From assembly GCA_903910495.1 (NCBI GenBank), contig CAIVZW010000216.1:1-6460 (forward strand): a stretch of 6,460 nt of DNA, given 5' to 3'. The position numbers and the translations under genes are program-made. Shown piece after piece: positions 201 to 6,460 of the stretch (position 1 is the stretch's first letter; every line of letters starts with the position of its first letter). Under the pieces are notes generated by a model. That model was not told where the DNA came from, searched no databases, and worked only from the letters and a program-made list of their open reading frames with translations. The DNA comes from an uncultured beta proteobacterium. GTDB taxonomy: Bacteria; Pseudomonadota; Gammaproteobacteria; Burkholderiales; Rhodocyclaceae.

Positions 201-1190
201 TTACTTGGTAGCGGCACGGAACTGCTTGACGAAATCGCCAAAAGGTTTCTGCTCCCAAGCTTCCCACACCTTCTGGGTAGCAGCCTTGAAAGCTGCCGGA
301 TCTGCATTATTTATCTGAACAGAAGGCATTTTCTTGTATTCGGCCATCAGTTTTTCGTCAGATTCAAACATCAACTTGCGCTCGAAGGCAGTGGCTTCCT
401 GTGCGGCGTCCTTGATCATCTTGCGATCGTCAGCCGAGAGACGACCCCAGGTAATTGCACTCATCACAAAAGGCATCGACTCATACTTGTGATTGGTGAT
501 CGAGATGTATTTCTGTACTTCGTGTAGCTTCGATGAGTGGATGTTTGCCAGAGGATTCTCCTGGCCATCAACTACACCCTGTTGAATTGCGATGTAGAGT
601 TCGCCGAAATTGATTTGCTGGGTGCTGGCACCCATGGCCTGGAACATGTCGACGGTCGCCGGATCTGCCGGCGTACGCAGTTTCACGCCGACGAGGTCTT
701 CCGGCTTGGTGATCGGGCGCTTGTTGTTCGAAACCTGGCGTATGCCGTTATCCATCCATCCGAGGAGAATCAGGCCTTTGGCTTCCAGTTTCTTTGCCAG
801 TTCTTCACCGATCTTGCCATCCAGCAGCTTCCATGCCTCCGGTTGAGTCTTGAACGCGTAGGGCAAACCCAAAGCGGCCAGTTCAGGAACCACCGAAGAC
901 AGAGGTCCTTGAGAATTGACGCTCATGTCAAGGGTGCCTGTGCGCATGCTCGAGATGTTCGTCAAATCATCACCAAGTTGTGCAGCTCCGGCAACCTGAA
1001 TGGTGTACCGCCCCTTACTCTGTTCCTTGACGATATCGGCGAACTTTAGCGCTGCCAGTGCTTTTGGATTGCCGGGCGCGGCATTATGGCCGAGCGTCAG
1101 TTTAATCGGAGCCTGGGCTGAGACCGTCTGCGCAAAACAAAATGCGCTTGCAGCTAGCGTCATTGCGAGCCATTTGAACTGGGTTTTCAT
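201..1190 (-). CDS. dctP: TRAP transporter substrate-binding protein, DctP family
   Basis: This 329-residue protein is the periplasmic receptor of a tripartite ATP-independent (Na+-driven) transporter. Residues 1-25 form a signal peptide (MKTQFKWL, a hydrophobic core to about 22, then VSAQA), with likely cleavage near residues 25-27. The mature domain starts with the typical strand IKLTLGHNAAPGNP. Family hallmarks are QLGDD (71-75), the GIRQVSNN segment with Arg151 (149-156), GVKLRTPADP with Arg172 (168-177), GELYIAIQQGVVDGQENPL (196-214) and WGRLS (248-252). In characterised DctP/SiaP proteins the Arg in the LRTP segment makes a salt bridge to the ligand carboxylate, and it is present here. 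Length is normal. The start at 1190 is set by a perfect AAGGAGGT 5 bases upstream; a GTG at 1238 would place 16 residues in front of the signal peptide. It lies 334 bases after the hydroxyacid dehydrogenase and is followed by the dctQ candidate. The ligand is unknown but is probably an organic or sugar acid. Confidence 0.95.
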   Translation of the reverse strand: MKTQFKWLAMTLAASAFCFAQTVSAQAPIKLTLGHNAAPGNPKALAALKFADIVKEQSKGRYTIQVAGAAQLGDDLTNISSMRTGTLDMSVNSQGPLSSVVPELAALGLPYAFKTQPEAWKLLDGKIGEELAKKLEAKGLILLGWMDNGIRQVSNNKRPITKPEDLVGVKLRTPADPATVDMFQAMGASTQQINFGELYIAIQQGVVDGQENPLANIHSSKLHEVQKYISITNHKYESMPFVMSAITWGRLSADDRKMIKDAAQEATAFERKLMFESDEKLMAEYKKMPSVQINNADPAAFKAATQKVWEAWEQKPFGDFVKQFRAATK

Positions 1191-1195
1191 GTGTG

Positions 1196-1203
1196 ACCTC
1201 CTT
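1196..1203 (-). promoter_or_regulatory. Strong ribosome binding site of dctP
   Basis: The minus strand reads AAGGAGGT, then five bases (CACAC... region), then the ATG at 1190. This is a full-length Shine-Dalgarno match at good spacing. It fixes the start of dctP at the Met that opens the signal peptide and predicts strong translation, as expected for an abundant periplasmic receptor. Confidence 0.8.
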
Positions 1204-1276
1204 GTATGAGTAAAACAAACGGCAGCACAGGAAAACACTTGCCTCCTGTTCTACCTCTTTTGCACCGCAACTACTT

Positions 1277-1291
1277 TAACAACACCTGTTA
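1277..1291. promoter_or_regulatory. Short dyad upstream of dctP
   Basis: TAACA (1277-1281) and TGTTA (1287-1291) form a perfect 5-bp inverted repeat around a 5-base centre, 87-101 bases upstream of the dctP start. It lies in the only stretch (1191-1308) before dctP that is not coding or a gene remnant. It could be a protein-binding site for a secondary dctP promoter. I could not find a convincing -35/-10 pair beside it, and a dyad this short can arise by chance. Confidence 0.15.
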
Positions 1292-1308
1292 CAAACATCT
1301 ACAGCGTC

Positions 1309-1524
1309 CTATAACCATGATTTGAAGCTCCGGACCCTTGCCGCCGGCGAGATCACACGGCGTTCATGCAGTATAGTAAAAGCACTGGCATCCAGGTAGG
1401 CATCCGGCAGGGCAATCCGGCGGAAACTGGGCGGAATGACTTGTTTGCGCATCAGCAATTTGGCAATAACTTCGCCGAGACCGCCAGCAATCGAATGGTT
1501 CTCAGCAATAATAACGATGTTCCA
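1309..1524 (-). pseudogene. Remnant of a second transketolase C-terminal subunit (5'-truncated)
   Basis: From 1524 down to the TAG at 1311-1309, the minus strand encodes 71 residues with no start codon at a sensible place. The residues begin WNIVIIAENHSIAGGLGEVI, pass through PPSFRRIALPDAYLDAS, and end VRSFKSWL. This matches the extreme C-terminal domain of transketolase-like proteins: a beta strand, the ENHSxxGGLGE motif, the xRRIxLPDxY strand, then a helix ending at the natural C-terminus. The pyrimidine-binding domain and everything before the final domain are absent. The fragment starts one codon (TGG) after the TGA of the hydroxyacid dehydrogenase and is in the same frame, so readthrough would fuse the two. 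The intact C subunit at 2531-3478 differs at these motifs (ENHQKRNGFG, IGLEDTFAES), so this is a diverged paralogue rather than a recent tandem copy. It is most probably a non-functional relic of rearrangement. Confidence 0.8.
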
Positions 1525-2484
1525 TCATGGGTTGACCACGTTCTGTGGTTTGCCCTTGAGGAACGCGGCGAGATTGTCGGCGGCGACATTTATCAGCCGC
1601 GTGCGGGCTTCCCGGGTTGCCCACGCGATATGTGGTGTGACGATGCAATTCTGCGCTGAAAGCAGGGGATTGTCAGGAACAGGCGGTTCGGAAGACAGCA
1701 CATCGACCGCTGCGCCGGCCACGCGCCCGGATTTAAGTGCCTCGGCCAGTTCCGCTTCGTTGATCAAAGGGCCGCGCGACGTGTTCAGGATCAGCACCCC
1801 AGGCTTCATTTTTCCGATGGACACCTGATTGATCATGCCGCTGTTGTTATCAGACAACGGGCAATGCAGGCTGATCACATCGGCCTTGGCGTACAGATCG
1901 TCGAGCGTCGTATAGCGTAGCGTTGCTGATTCGAGCCGTTTGTCCGGGTATTCGTCCACGGCCAGGATATTCATTCCGAACGCCTGTGCAATCTTTCCGA
2001 ACGCCTGCCCGATCCGACCGAAGCCGATGATGCCGAGTGTTTTTCCGTCAAGTTCGACAAGCGGGTTGAGCCAGTAACAGAAATCCTTGCCAGCGGACCA
2101 GTCGCCGGCCCTGACGCTGTCCGCATGACGACCGACGCGGTGACAGAGTTCCAGAAGCAGTGCCATAGTGAACTGGGCGACGGCCATCGTGCCGTAGGTC
2201 GGAATGTTGCTGACAGGGATGCCGCATTCCCGGGCGACCGTGATATCGACCACATTGTAGCCGGTCGCCAGTACGCCGACGAAACGGATCTGCGGATTGG
2301 CGGCGAAATGTTCGCGGGTCAGGGGAGTCTTGTTGGTGAAGACGATCTCGGCATCGGCGAGCCGTGCCATCATCTGATCGGGCGCGGTCCGGTCGTGGAC
2401 CGCCAGCGTACCCTGCTGCTCGATCCCCGACCAGGTCAGGTCACCCGGATTCAGTGTGTATCCGTCCAGAACAACGATCTTCAA
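1525..2484 (-). CDS. D-2-hydroxyacid dehydrogenase (glycerate dehydrogenase / hydroxypyruvate reductase-like)
   Basis: This 319-residue cytoplasmic oxidoreductase belongs to the NAD-dependent D-isomer 2-hydroxyacid dehydrogenase family and would interconvert a 2-keto acid and the D-2-hydroxy acid. The N-terminus MKIVVLDGYTLNPGDL is typical of the glycerate-dehydrogenase-like branch. The Rossmann motif GFGRIG is at 154-159. Asp177, at the end of the next strand (ILAVDEY), points to NAD rather than NADP. The catalytic set is complete: Arg237 in NTSRG, Glu266 in DVLSSEPP and His285 in TPHIAW. Length is normal. The start codon is TTG at 2484, supported by AAAGGA 6 bases upstream, by the family N-terminus, and by the lack of an ATG nearby in frame. 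It begins 46 bases after tktC, so it is in the same operon. Glycerate/hydroxypyruvate is a likely substrate pair by family resemblance only; another C3-C5 hydroxy acid, or a sulfonated one, is possible. Confidence 0.92.
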   Translation of the reverse strand: MKIVVLDGYTLNPGDLTWSGIEQQGTLAVHDRTAPDQMMARLADAEIVFTNKTPLTREHFAANPQIRFVGVLATGYNVVDITVARECGIPVSNIPTYGTMAVAQFTMALLLELCHRVGRHADSVRAGDWSAGKDFCYWLNPLVELDGKTLGIIGFGRIGQAFGKIAQAFGMNILAVDEYPDKRLESATLRYTTLDDLYAKADVISLHCPLSDNNSGMINQVSIGKMKPGVLILNTSRGPLINEAELAEALKSGRVAGAAVDVLSSEPPVPDNPLLSAQNCIVTPHIAWATREARTRLINVAADNLAAFLKGKPQNVVNP

Positions 2485-2530: not shown

Positions 2531-3478
2531 CTATTTCTTTTTCAACAACGCGGCCGTCGTCTCCGCGATCCTGGCCCCCGACATGCCGAACTTGTCGAGT
2601 GTGATCTGGTAGTTTCCACTCTCGGCGAAGGTGTCTTCCAATCCGATCAGGGCCGCTGGTACGGGATTGTTCTGCAACGCCCACACGGCCAACTCATAGC
2701 CGAATCCGTTGCGCTTCTGGTGATTCTCGGCGACGACCAGCGCGCCCGTCTTCCTGAGCGACTCGGCCAGCGTCGCCTGGTCCCAGGGCTTCAGCGAATA
2801 GAAATCGATGACTTCGGCGTCGATTCCCTGTTTGGCCAGCTCGTCGGCAGCGGCAAGGGACTGGAAGACGATGTCGCCATAGGTGGCGATGGTGACGTCC
2901 TTGCCTTTTCGTACGACCTTGGATCCGCCCAGACGGAAGGTTTCGCCCGGTCCGTACAGTTCGAACAACGGATCTCGCATGAGGCGGGTGAACACCGGTC
3001 CCGGCGTATCGAGCGCGATGTCGAGCGCGGCCGCTGCCGAGGCACTGTCGGCCGGGACGAGCACCTTCATGTTCGGCAGCGTGGTCATGAATGCGATGTC
3101 CTCGGTGGCCTGATGCGTGACACCGTCGATGGCGGCGGTGAGGCCTCCATGGCTTGAGAGGAACTTGACGTTGAGGTGCGGGTAGCAGATGAACGAACGG
3201 ATGACTTCGAGAGCGCGCATGGTGATGAAGACGCCGTAGCCGCAGACGATGACGTTGCGACCCTCCACGGCCATGCCGGCGGCCGATGCGGCAGTGCCGA
3301 TCTCGGCGATGCCCATGTTGAAGTAGCGGCCCGGATGCTTGTCCTTGAACAGATAGGAGAACGTGGACTTGGCAAGGTCCGATTCGAAGACCGCGAATTC
3401 CTTGTCCGTTTCCGCGCGGGCGGTCATCCGTTCCGCGAACACTCGGCGGGTCGGGCTGGTGGCTGCCGGGAAATTCAT
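2531..3478 (-). CDS. Transketolase-like protein, C-terminal (pyrimidine-binding) subunit
   Basis: This 315-residue protein is the second half of a split thiamine-diphosphate transketolase. It carries the pyrimidine-binding domain (about 8-170) and the C-terminal domain (about 190-310). The conserved Glu that activates the cofactor is Glu59 in FNMGIAEIG (53-61). Further family segments are SSHGGLTAAIDGVTHQATED (108-127, including His122), MTTLPNMKVLVPAD (131-144) and FTRLMRDP (163-170). The C-terminal domain has ATYGDIV (198-204) and ENHQKRNGFGYE (251-262), where canonical relatives have ENHSxxGGLG. Length is typical of split C subunits. The start at 3478 overlaps the stop of the N subunit (ATGA) and has AAAGGAG 7 bases upstream (3486-3492), so the two are translationally coupled for equal synthesis. 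Together they would transfer a two-carbon ketol unit. The donor and acceptor cannot be read from sequence. Other TPP enzymes such as DXP synthase are excluded by the split form and length. Confidence 0.92.
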   Translation of the reverse strand: MNFPAATSPTRRVFAERMTARAETDKEFAVFESDLAKSTFSYLFKDKHPGRYFNMGIAEIGTAASAAGMAVEGRNVIVCGYGVFITMRALEVIRSFICYPHLNVKFLSSHGGLTAAIDGVTHQATEDIAFMTTLPNMKVLVPADSASAAAALDIALDTPGPVFTRLMRDPLFELYGPGETFRLGGSKVVRKGKDVTIATYGDIVFQSLAAADELAKQGIDAEVIDFYSLKPWDQATLAESLRKTGALVVAENHQKRNGFGYELAVWALQNNPVPAALIGLEDTFAESGNYQITLDKFGMSGARIAETTAALLKKK

Positions 3479-4332
3479 AGCGTGACTCCTTTCAGTTCTG
3501 CGATGGCTTTCTTGTATTGTTCGTCGTTGGGGGCCTTGCCGTGCCAGTCAAGCTGGTTTTCCATGAAACTCACGCCCTTGCCCTTGACGGTATCGGCGAG
3601 GACACAGATCGGTTTGCCGTTGCGGGTGAGCTTCGCTTTGGTGAGCGTGGCCAGCACATCGGCCATGTCATGCCCGTTCATCGTCAGAACGTCAAAACCG
3701 AAGGCGCGGAACTTCGCATCGATGGGTCGTGTAGGCAACACCTCGTCGGGCGTGCCATCCAGTTGGAGATTGTTGATGTCGACAATGGCAACCAGGTTGT
3801 CGAGTTGGAACTTTGCAGCGGCGAGCGAGCTTTCCCATACGACGCCCTCGTTGATTTCGCCATCGCCAAGGACGACGAAGACCTTGTAATCCTTCTTGCG
3901 CATCAGCTTGCCTTCCATCGCGATGCCCACGGCCTGGGCATAACCCAGTCCCAGCGAGCCGGTCGAGGCATCAAGACCAGGAAGGTAGGTCGCGATCGGA
4001 TGCCCCTGCAGACGACTGTCGTTCCTGCGCAGCGTCTTGAGTTCCTCGATGGGGAAAAAGCCCCGCATTGCCAGCGAGGCATACCAGATCGGGCAGGCAT
4101 GCCCTTTTGAAAGGATGAAGCGGTCGCGTTCTTCCCACCCCGGATTGGCGGGATCGACCTTCATCAGGTCGAAGTACAGCGCCGCGACAAAATCGGCGGC
4201 TGACAGCGAGCCGCCGATGTGCCCCGACTGCGCCGTATAGACCATGTCCACTACGTGGCAGCGAAGCTCGTTGGCGATCAGTCTTAGCCGGTCGACGCGA
4301 GCATCGAAGGAAAGGCCGGATGTGTCATTCAT
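3475..4332 (-). CDS. Transketolase-like protein, N-terminal (diphosphate-binding) subunit
   Basis: This 285-residue protein is the first half of the split transketolase and binds the diphosphate and Mg2+ of thiamine diphosphate. The TPP motif is complete: GDGEINEG at 156-163, with the paired Asn residues in VDINNLQLDG at 187-188. Other family segments are SGHIGGSLSAAD (36-47, His38), FILSKGHACP (72-81, His78), HPIATYLPGLDASTGSLGLG (111-130) and LDWHGKAPN (261-269, His264). Length is typical of split N subunits, which stop where the pyrimidine domain would begin. The start at 4332 has GGAG 7 bases upstream. It lies 181 bases after the SDR and overlaps the C subunit by 4 bases. Being split is common in bacterial catabolic operons. 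The housekeeping transketolase of a proteobacterium is normally a single chain of about 660 residues, so this pair is probably specialised. Confidence 0.93.
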   Translation of the reverse strand: MNDTSGLSFDARVDRLRLIANELRCHVVDMVYTAQSGHIGGSLSAADFVAALYFDLMKVDPANPGWEERDRFILSKGHACPIWYASLAMRGFFPIEELKTLRRNDSRLQGHPIATYLPGLDASTGSLGLGYAQAVGIAMEGKLMRKKDYKVFVVLGDGEINEGVVWESSLAAAKFQLDNLVAIVDINNLQLDGTPDEVLPTRPIDAKFRAFGFDVLTMNGHDMADVLATLTKAKLTRNGKPICVLADTVKGKGVSFMENQLDWHGKAPNDEQYKKAIAELKGVTL

Positions 4333-4471
4333 GAGTTAACTCCAAGGATGAGGAAAGCAGGGATGTCCATTGAACCGCCACCTGACCGATACCGAACAGG
4401 GATCTCTGTAATGCTTTGGAGAGCCATGGGATATTGGTGGCGAGGAATAGTACGGCGACGTTAATGCCCAT
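4325..4471 (-). CDS. Possible small hydrophobic ORF ahead of the transketolase genes
   Basis: In the 181-base gap between the SDR and the transketolase N subunit, the minus strand has a 48-codon frame from ATG 4471 to TGA 4325. It starts MGINVAVLFLATNIPWLSKA and ends SSLELTHE. Residues 2-17 are hydrophobic enough for one membrane segment. Its stop overlaps the next gene's start as ATGAATGA, and the ribosome binding site of the transketolase gene lies inside it, which is an arrangement seen in translational coupling. Against it, there is no clear ribosome binding site before the ATG, I recognise no family, and the frame is short enough to be chance. It could also be gene debris like that at 1309-1524. 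Beyond this frame I see nothing in 4333-4513. Confidence 0.2.
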   Translation of the reverse strand: MGINVAVLFLATNIPWLSKALQRSLFGIGQVAVQWTSLLSSSLELTHE

Positions 4472-4513
4472 TATTGCGACCGGCTGGTTCCATTAGAAAT
4501 GATTCTTGTCATG

Positions 4514-5263
4514 TCAGTGAATCAGCATCCCGCCGTTGACGTCCAGCGTGACGCCGGTACAGTACTTCGAGAGGTCACAGGCGAGGAACAGGCAGGCACC
4601 GGCAACATCGTTGGGTTCGCCGATGCGGCCGAGCGGAATGGATTCCAGGATCGACGCGCGCTTGTCTTCCGGAATTTTGCCCTTGTTGATGTCGGTGGCA
4701 ATCAGACCGGGTGTAACGCAGTTAACACGGATGTTGTCGCCGCCGAATTCGCGCGCCATGGCGCGCGCCAAGCCAAGGACGCCGGCCTTGGCTGCGGAAT
4801 AGTGCGGGCCGCCGAGGATGCCGCCGCCACGCTGCGCTGAAACGGAGGAAATGCAGACGATAGAACCGGATTTCTGCTTCTGCATGGCCGGCAGGACGGC
4901 TTGCGACATATGCAGGGTACCTCGCAGACTGACATCGAGAATGGCGTCGTAGTCAGCATCAGTGATGTCCACAGTTTTGCGTGGCTGGGTGATGCCGGCA
5001 TTATTGACCAGGATGTCGATACGACCGTAGCGAGCGAGAATCTTCTGGACAGCCTCTTCGCACTGCGCCTTGTTGGTGATGTCGGCAACCACGCCCATAT
5101 TGTCTTTGCCTAGAAGGTCGGCGGATTGCGAGGGATTGGCGGTCTCAAGATCAAGTATGACGATTTTTGCACCCTGTTCGGACATCATCCGGGCAGTGGC
5201 GAAACCGAGGCCATTGACACCGGCTCCGCCGGTCACAATTGCAACGCGATTGTTAAGTAACAT
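4514..5263 (-). CDS. Short-chain dehydrogenase/reductase (SDR), classical FabG-like
   Basis: This 249-residue cytoplasmic NAD-dependent oxidoreductase would interconvert an alcohol and a ketone or aldehyde. The Rossmann fold opens with VAIVTGGAGVNGLG (7-20), a cofactor loop about two residues longer than the usual TGGAxGIG. Asp38 (VILDLE) favours NAD. VVADIT is at 58-63 and NNAG at 87-90. The catalytic Ser140 (CISS), Tyr155 and Lys159 (YSAAK) are present. The helix-4 Asn of the classical catalytic tetrad is replaced by Ser112 (DVSLRG). NCVTPGLIATD (181-191) and TGVTLDVNGG (236-245) complete the family pattern. The start at 5263 is preferred because AAGGA lies 8 bases upstream; the ATG at 5284 has no ribosome binding site and would add MTTRIHQ. 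It is the first gene of the operon, divergent from the LysR gene. The substrate is unknown, but a polyol, sugar or hydroxy acid would fit. Confidence 0.93.
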   Translation of the reverse strand: MLLNNRVAIVTGGAGVNGLGFATARMMSEQGAKIVILDLETANPSQSADLLGKDNMGVVADITNKAQCEEAVQKILARYGRIDILVNNAGITQPRKTVDITDADYDAILDVSLRGTLHMSQAVLPAMQKQKSGSIVCISSVSAQRGGGILGGPHYSAAKAGVLGLARAMAREFGGDNIRVNCVTPGLIATDINKGKIPEDKRASILESIPLGRIGEPNDVAGACLFLACDLSKYCTGVTLDVNGGMLIH

Positions 5264-5271
5264 TTGATGGA

Positions 5272-5276
5272 TCCTT
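5272..5276 (-). promoter_or_regulatory. Ribosome binding site deciding the SDR start
   Basis: The minus strand reads AAGGA 8 bases before the ATG at 5263. The alternative ATG at 5284 has no purine-rich stretch at a useful distance, so the shorter protein is favoured. Confidence 0.5.
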
Positions 5277-5340
5277 GTTGTCATTGAAAGTCATTGCTGT
5301 AATATTGCATAGTTATTGGTCGTGAGCGCAAGAGTTAAAA

Positions 5341-5358: not shown

Positions 5359-5380
5359 AATTTTCATGTTAGGGTGCTTC

Positions 5381-6289
5381 ATGAGATCCGATCTTCCACC
5401 ATTTACGGCATTGGTCGCTTTCGAAGCGGTGGCCCGCCGATTGAGTTTTGCGCGTGCTGCCGGTGAATTGCATCTGACTCCGTCGGCCATTAGCCACCAG
5501 ATTGCAAATCTCGAATCGTTCCTTGGGTTTCGTCTGTTTGAGCGTTCGTCACATGGCATCTTGCTCAGTGATGCAGGTGAAAATTATCTGAAACGCGTGG
5601 CCGGTGCTCTGGGGGCTATCAGTAATGCGACAAACGATGTGCGTAAAGGGGCGCGAAATACCCTCTATGTGCACTCCTGTCCAACCTTTGCTGGCGTTTG
5701 GCTAATGCCAAGACTGAGGGAGTTTGTCGAGGCCTATCCTGAAATCTCCCTGTCACTTTCGGTTTCACCCGACCATTCCGATTTTGCACTTGGCCAGGTT
5801 GACATTGATATCCGCTACGGTATTCCTGAGTGGCCCAATCTTGTTGTCCAATCGGTCTTCGACGAAAATGTCCTGCCTCTCGCCAGCCCTGATTTTCTTG
5901 CACAGCGAGTGATGCGGAATCCGGAAGACCTACTCGAACGTCCGCTGATCCAATCAACAAAGAACGTTGTACAGTGGTCCGCCTGGTTTGCCAGCCGTGG
6001 TTTGATCGGGACACCTGAACACTTTGCCTTTCGTTTTGATCGTTCTTATCTGACTCTGGAAGCCGCGGCGCAAGGGTTTGGCGTTGCCTTGGAAAGTCTG
6101 CAGATATCAGCTCCGTATATTGCGAATGGTCGGCTACTCCCGATTTTTCAGACGGACTGGGCCCTTGTGGTACGGACACATTTCATTGTTTGCCCGGAAA
6201 GACACATACAGCGACCCGAAGTAACGCAATTCATTAACTGGATGCGACAGCAACTGGATAAATCTCAAGCAGATTCAACAGTAGAATAG
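5381..6289 (+). CDS. LysR-family transcriptional regulator (GcvA-like)
   Basis: This 302-residue DNA-binding regulator is probably the local activator or repressor of the divergent operon. The N-terminal winged helix-turn-helix spans about 5-63: LPPFTALVAFEAVARR, then the helix-turn-helix LSFARAAGELHLTPSAISHQ (21-40), then LESFLGFRLFERSSHG and the wing. A linker helix runs to about 90. The effector-binding domain (about 95-295) starts LYVHSCPTFAGVWLMPRLREF and includes VDIDIRYG (140-147) and EAAAQGFGVALE (227-238), segments typical of the GcvA-like subgroup. Length is normal. The start at 5381 has AGGG 6 bases upstream; an ATG at 5366 would add MLGCF and lacks a good site. The gene looks less GC-rich than the metabolic genes, a common trait of regulators. 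The effector is unknown. The serine hydrolase gene follows 55 bases later on the same strand. Confidence 0.93.
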   Translation: MRSDLPPFTALVAFEAVARRLSFARAAGELHLTPSAISHQIANLESFLGFRLFERSSHGILLSDAGENYLKRVAGALGAISNATNDVRKGARNTLYVHSCPTFAGVWLMPRLREFVEAYPEISLSLSVSPDHSDFALGQVDIDIRYGIPEWPNLVVQSVFDENVLPLASPDFLAQRVMRNPEDLLERPLIQSTKNVVQWSAWFASRGLIGTPEHFAFRFDRSYLTLEAAAQGFGVALESLQISAPYIANGRLLPIFQTDWALVVRTHFIVCPERHIQRPEVTQFINWMRQQLDKSQADSTVE

Positions 6290-6344: not shown

Positions 6345-6460
6345 ATGGTGGAACACGTGTATTTTCCAGGACCAGATCCCGAATGGGAACAGATCTCCCC
6401 AGAATTGGCCGGCTTTGACGAGCAACGCCTTTGTTCCGCAGTGGATGAAATCCGAAAAGC
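6345..6460 (+). CDS. Probable beta-lactamase-family serine hydrolase, 5' end only
   Basis: The frame from ATG 6345 is open for 38 complete codons and runs off the window. AAAAGGA lies 6 bases upstream (6332-6338). The protein begins MVEHVYFPGPDPEWEQISPE and continues LAGFDEQRLCSAVDEIRKA. An aromatic-proline opening, then W-E, then P-x-x-A-G-F-D-x-x-x-L-x-x-A-V is the usual N-terminus of class C beta-lactamase-fold hydrolases (esterases, peptidases, lactonases; EstB type). The catalytic Ser-x-x-Lys lies further downstream, outside the window, so activity cannot be confirmed. No signal peptide is visible, which argues for a cytoplasmic esterase or amidase rather than a periplasmic resistance enzyme. 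It could be co-transcribed with lysR. A link to the operon, such as cleaving an ester or lactone of the substrate, is inference. Confidence 0.6.
   Translation, partial: MVEHVYFPGPDPEWEQISPELAGFDEQRLCSAVDEIRK

Follow-up and report, generated by a model that had tools for sequence, protein, structure and literature searches.

We analyzed a 6,460-nt stretch of DNA from an uncultured beta proteobacterium (hereafter, the window) and found an operon whose transketolase genes were most likely exchanged in situ. The operon's own tktN and most of its tktC (encoding the N and C subunits of a split transketolase) would have been replaced by a cassette of tktN', tktC' and a D-2-hydroxyacid dehydrogenase gene (DH), and the dead 3' end of the original tktC would still stand in front of dctP. 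We estimate the probability of this reading at about 0.85 from the sequence comparisons presented below. The features of the window are the following:

201..1190, minus strand: dctP, TRAP solute-binding protein, assigned to the resident operon; ATG at 1190
1191..1308, minus strand: spacer between remnant and dctP, 118 nt from the TAG to the dctP ATG (intact tktC-dctP spacers measure 59-238 nt in the nine annotated loci having SDR-tktN-tktC-dctP)
1309..1524, minus strand: tktC remnant, apparently the C-terminal end of the transketolase C gene that the operon first had; 71 codons and TAG
1519..1527, minus strand: right junction zone, comprising the DH stop TGA (1527-1525) and remnant codons 1 and 2, neither of which matches transketolase
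1525..2484, minus strand: D-2-hydroxyacid dehydrogenase (DH), apparent foreign cassette; ends level with its homologues
2531..3478, minus strand: tktC', divergent transketolase C subunit, apparent foreign cassette; 88% identical to Propionivibrio dicarboxylicus
3475..4332, minus strand: tktN', divergent transketolase N subunit, apparent foreign cassette
4328..4492, minus strand: 55-codon open frame in the SDR-tktN' gap, running into the tktN' start; tentatively the end of a TRAP large permease
4514..5284, minus strand: SDR oxidoreductase, assigned to the resident operon
5366..6289, plus strand: LysR regulator, resident, divergent from the operon

The minus strand from 1524 to 1312 translates to WNIVIIAENHSIAGGLGEVIAKLLMRKQVIPPSFRRIALPDAYLDASAFTILHERRVISPAARVRSFKSWL and is closed by a TAG at 1311-1309; this frame follows the TGA of DH immediately and in the same phase. 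By sequence comparison, residues 3-71 match the extreme C-terminus of split-transketolase C subunits. A preliminary description of this DNA had read a C-terminal transketolase fragment of 71 residues here, and both the translation and a tblastn search of plasmids confirm it. The remnant matched 188 of 72,556 plasmid records (best E = 1e-17), with 40.6-60.3% identity among the matches listed (60 of the 188) and a span that was nearly always residues 3-71. The annotated genes beneath these matches are transketolases, and the similarity stops within a few residues of the relatives' C-terminal ends. These plasmid matches are decisive and place the homology far beyond chance. The match to a transketolase C-terminal profile, proposed as a check, was present but weak: residues 4-53 aligned to Pfam Transketolase_C (PF02780) with E = 0.0089 and 16.4 bits, below the curated cut-off of 25.9. 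The remnant covers only positions 64-114 of the 124 of this profile and most of the domain is absent; because it is truncated, missing the cut-off does not speak against descent. The remnant is 44-59% identical to nine canonical TktC proteins and 22% identical to the window's own TktC', so that the upstream C subunit is indeed clearly diverged from the fragment. Its similarity thus places it with the canonical split-transketolase C subunits of the TRAP operon type rather than with other TktC, although it is no full-length member of that family (71 of ~337 codons). Finally, the homology begins at residue 3 (residue 4 relative to locus L006) and the junction therefore lies within about nine bases, namely the DH stop and the next two codons, which agrees with the very tight junction described earlier.

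The remnant also departs from its family where the family does not vary. Across 19 intact loci, 24 columns of the alignment are invariant, and the remnant departs at 7 of them; six of these departures fall in the motif AGALPTLHDRYG, for which the remnant has ASAFTILHERRV. When each of the intact loci was left out in turn, 0 departures were observed in 13 loci, 1 in five and 3 in one (24-27 columns each). In a tree of the remnant stretch alone, its end branch reaches 1.14 changes per column (median, 0.14), a measure of decay that is partly confounded by distance because the nearest relative is only 59-60% identical. Truncation together with lost constraint, our two marks of a pseudogene, are thus both found in the remnant, with the same partial confounding. 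One property counts against decay: the frame is still open through all 71 codons. The first in-frame ATG, GTG or TTG is residue 23. A scan of 1150-1560 revealed neither a promoter-like nor a terminator-like site, and the whole window yielded no Rfam match above the gathering score. A strong ribosome-binding site of dctP's own (AAGGAGGT) lies five bases ahead of its ATG. Judged by the lost invariant residues and the long branch, the remnant most likely represents a pseudogene in decay; it is probably dead and most likely serves at most as a spacer. Neither this decay nor the shared phase with DH was mentioned in the preliminary description.

We then compared gene order across 20 loci carrying the TktC family of the remnant. 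Four distant loci (L001-L004), obtained by searching genome contigs with the remnant, were excluded from the counts. The order SDR-tktN-tktC-dctP, all on one strand, was observed in 11 of the 20 loci (L008, L010-L015, L023, L024, L026 and L028; L023 lists its SDR under the name glucose 1-dehydrogenase); for L008 and L015, which have no gene table, the order was derived from tblastn. This share is no unbiased census because of how the loci were chosen: the order was present in seven of the eight loci chosen by dctP (L010 having been picked once tktC was seen beside dctP), in four of the 11 chosen by the remnant and not in the one chosen by a DNA match to the SDR (L009). Eight of the 11 loci (L008, L010-L015 and L026) encode a DctP at least 50% identical to that of the window (51-56%), and thus provide the intact tktC directly upstream of a close dctP that the preliminary description had called for; DctP is only 29-36% identical in L023, L024 and L028, despite the expected order. 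The remaining loci are arranged differently. L005 and L007 present SDR-dctP-dctQ-dctM-tktN-tktC (with a TIM barrel before tktN in L007), an MFS transporter takes the place of TRAP in L006 and L029, and L030 and L031 present tktN-tktC-SDR-dctP. L009 presents tktN-tktC-SDR-oxidoreductase-dctP, with a DctP 32% identical to that of the window; L025, without a gene table, gave matches to tktN, tktC and LysR and none to SDR or dctP; L027 retains the tktC end only. The frequent SDR-tktN-tktC-dctP order is as expected if the remnant ends the operon's own tktC. As had been proposed, a canonical-type transketolase C gene very probably once stood ahead of dctP.

The closest known arrangement is an alphaproteobacterial plasmid operon in which SDR-tktN-tktC-dctP-dctQ-dctM diverges from LysR (L010-L014 and L026; the version of L023 and L028 has one long permease gene). 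The window's SDR, dctP, LysR and remnant are alike in kind and order. In contrast to this operon, the window carries the divergent tktN' and tktC' instead, plus a dehydrogenase after tktC'. A second tktC end resembling the remnant was found in plasmid pM0123d of Mesorhizobium amorphae (L027:5914-6207), where a gap without a listed gene contains no more of a canonical TktC than its final ~96 residues. Unlike the window remnant, this end has lost none of the 24 invariant residues, and no dctP, SDR or tktN match was found across the 12-kb stretch. It is perhaps a younger remnant from the same gene family.

The genes of the window follow two different sets of homologs, which makes the operon a mosaic. 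The SDR is 54-76% identical to the SDRs of the 11 loci L005-L015 (closest to L009, 76%, L007, 75%, and L005, 70%), DctP is 51-56% identical to nine of the ten dctP-matching loci among L005-L015, and LysR is 62% identical to L007 and 54% to L005 (34-39% to the others). We further compared family means, omitting L008, L015, L025, L027, L030 and L031 of the 20 loci. TktN' and TktC' are on average 38.7% and 35.9% identical to their 14 canonical counterparts, which average 71.9% and 73.8%, respectively, among themselves. The window's DctP fits its family (48.4% relative to 49.4% within 11 loci), and so does the SDR (61.7% relative to 67.7%), yet the latter mean falls just short of that of the lowest member (63.1%), which counts against a simple picture. 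An Anaerotruncus protein shares 59% identity with DH, and the dehydrogenases of the canonical loci share 30-41%. Among named proteins, TktC' is closest to Propionivibrio dicarboxylicus (88% and 82%), then to a Betaproteobacteria bacterium (81%) and Candidatus Accumulibacter (79%); a protein of a Treponemataceae MAG is 83% identical across 96% of the length. In the tree, TktC' groups with these proteins and is separated from the canonical group with 100/100 support. The remnant falls inside the canonical group, although its branch is long and its precise position uncertain; when the tree is built from the short stretch only, the remnant belongs to no well-supported set. The GC-content at third codon positions is 0.82 for tktC', 0.73 for tktN' and 0.72 for DH, relative to 0.685 for the SDR, 0.61 for dctP, 0.56 for the remnant and 0.49 for LysR; the SDR is therefore nearer the cassette than dctP, which counts against a simple picture. 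The SDR had previously been placed in the arriving block. SDR and LysR side with the family of the resident operon, unlike tktN', tktC' and DH; the arriving block was therefore most plausibly tktN'-tktC'-DH, the only part that looks foreign. We sought its donor in plasmids by tblastn, and none of L017-L022 combines a tktN-tktC pair with a DH match (the record of L019 starts mid-locus). Searches of viral contigs with TktC' and DctP found no relatives, and an X-padded remnant query scored nothing among 17 candidates.

The most likely course of events can be outlined as follows. The resident operon would have been SDR-tktN-tktC-dctP with a divergent LysR, probably followed by TRAP permease genes beyond the window. 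The divergent tktN'-tktC'-DH would then have displaced tktN and about four fifths of tktC, presumably through one or a few recombination steps, with a right joint in the roughly nine bases that span the DH stop and the two codons after it. The 71 codons left behind, without a usual start before residue 23, would have drifted and would now be a mere spacer between DH and dctP. The regulator, the SDR and the transporter would now serve the new enzyme, and a change of pathway may have come with the swap. One observation stands against this picture: the loci with the closest SDR (L009, L007 and L005) and LysR (L007 and L005) have no tktC before dctP. The intact operons that we compared are those of more distant relatives, not of the window's own lineage.

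The left junction lies somewhere in the 181-bp gap between SDR and tktN' (4333-4513). We compared the 55-codon frame in this gap (4492-4328) with the C-terminal ends of 15 DctM proteins. The end from L032 beats 500 of 500 shuffles (25 of 20,000 were as good in a longer run), L009 beats all but 2 and L034 all but 16 of 500, and 12 of the 15 ends are not notable. Multiplied by 15 tests, the similarity to L032 corresponds to a chance of about 0.02. Six-frame translations of the loci, cut into 7507 pieces of 55 residues, served as a control: 21 pieces match the L032 end equally well, and the 12 listed among them look like true TRAP permeases. The frame extends some 20 residues beyond the L032 end. 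It gave no match in Pfam (E 1), in plasmids by tblastn (E 1 and E 10) or in the PDB. We treat it only as a lead to a second scar, a tentative TRAP permease end. That both edges of the swap are scarred, with a donor dctM end before tktN' and the resident tktC end after DH, is doubtful. If both scars were true, the donor would have had dctM-tktN'-tktC'-DH and a truncated gene's 3' end would lie at each joint; transketolase cassettes would in that case travel from one TRAP operon to another as units severed close to gene ends, with regulator, SDR and transporter as a staying chassis. A 7-nt direct repeat, GTTCCAT on the plus strand, occurs on that strand at 1519-1525 and 4487-4493 only, at both cassette edges. 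We did not count it as evidence because 508 of 5000 shuffled gaps share a 7-mer with the junction zone, a chance of about 1 in 10.

Alternatively, the cassette could have been added upstream of an intact resident tktN-tktC pair, of which a later deletion spared only the last 71 codons. Such a course shares the core of the preferred explanation, with which its odds overlap, and appears possible but clearly less likely. One-step replacement and insertion followed by deletion give the same product, and the window itself neither favors nor disfavors the latter. Side-by-side transketolases do occur, since the Skermanella and Hartmannibacter loci have an extra full-length tkt near the split pair; however, this route requires an additional state with a redundant pair and a deletion ending at the DH stop. 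A different starting point, in which the resident order was that of L005 and L007, would involve a duplication or rearrangement that set a second dctP after the tktC end, where the cassette arose or landed. The affinities of the SDR (L007, L005 and L009) and LysR (L007 and L005) agree with such an origin, and the 4492-4328 frame could be its dctM end. We consider it improbable: it requires more steps, the window's DctP is equally close to eight of the tktC-dctP loci (51-56%; L008, L010-L015 and L026) and to L005 and L007 (51-54%), and the spacing to dctP suits the simple order.

It is also conceivable that the junction is an assembly chimera of two loci, as its tightness might suggest; a search for a second copy of the junction, which covered viral contigs only, found none. 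However, a chimera would join an intact, constrained gene and the remnant looks decayed; moreover, one kind of operon accounts for SDR and LysR to one side of the junction as well as for dctP to the other, which makes a chimera very unlikely. The remnant might instead be functional, as a short protein, or extend DH by read-through, since its frame is open and in phase with DH past a single TGA, a phase with one chance in three. This is the least likely reading given that 7 of the 24 invariant residues are lost, that most of the domain is absent and that no usual start precedes residue 23. DH itself looks complete, its end NVVNP aligning with the ends of the homologs in L018 and L022 (NVVNL and NVVN).

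In situ replacement also has precedents. Omelchenko et al. reportedly observed in 2003 that operon genes are replaced in situ by distant homologs while their neighbors stay. The operon of the window is a member of this known kind, a mosaic operon, with the end of the displaced gene still readable. Mosaic operons arising from in situ gene displacement have been described (PMC4481853). As in those operons, genes inside the operon are replaced by distant homologs and the neighbors are kept; unlike them, the window keeps part of the displaced gene in readable form at the joint, and its three incoming genes apparently arrived as a block. Our literature search on split transketolases and on xenologous or pseudogene transketolase operons found no paper, and the papers retrieved on transketolase together with two of TRAP transporters, short-chain dehydrogenases and apiose did not deal with such a swap, as judged by title and the start of the abstract. 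Because the end of the old enzyme gene adjoins its apparent replacement, an in situ swap in a carbohydrate operon becomes datable and testable, given close relatives. The remnant would constitute a record of enzyme exchange inside bacterial operons, and its 71 codons should not be annotated as a gene.

Judging from the protein families and general knowledge, the SDR would oxidize a polyol or sugar acid imported by the TRAP system, the transketolase would use the ketose thus formed, and DH would reduce a 2-oxo acid such as hydroxypyruvate. Two further open frames leave the window. A plus-strand frame at 6345-6460 starts with MVEHVYFPGPDPEWEQISPELAGFDEQRLCSAVDEIRK, and a minus-strand frame 3' of dctP (120-1) starts with MSISENWPSPENEGSSPAKSFVVTAAHSIENWIGQLCRVI and could, by its position, be the start of dctQ.
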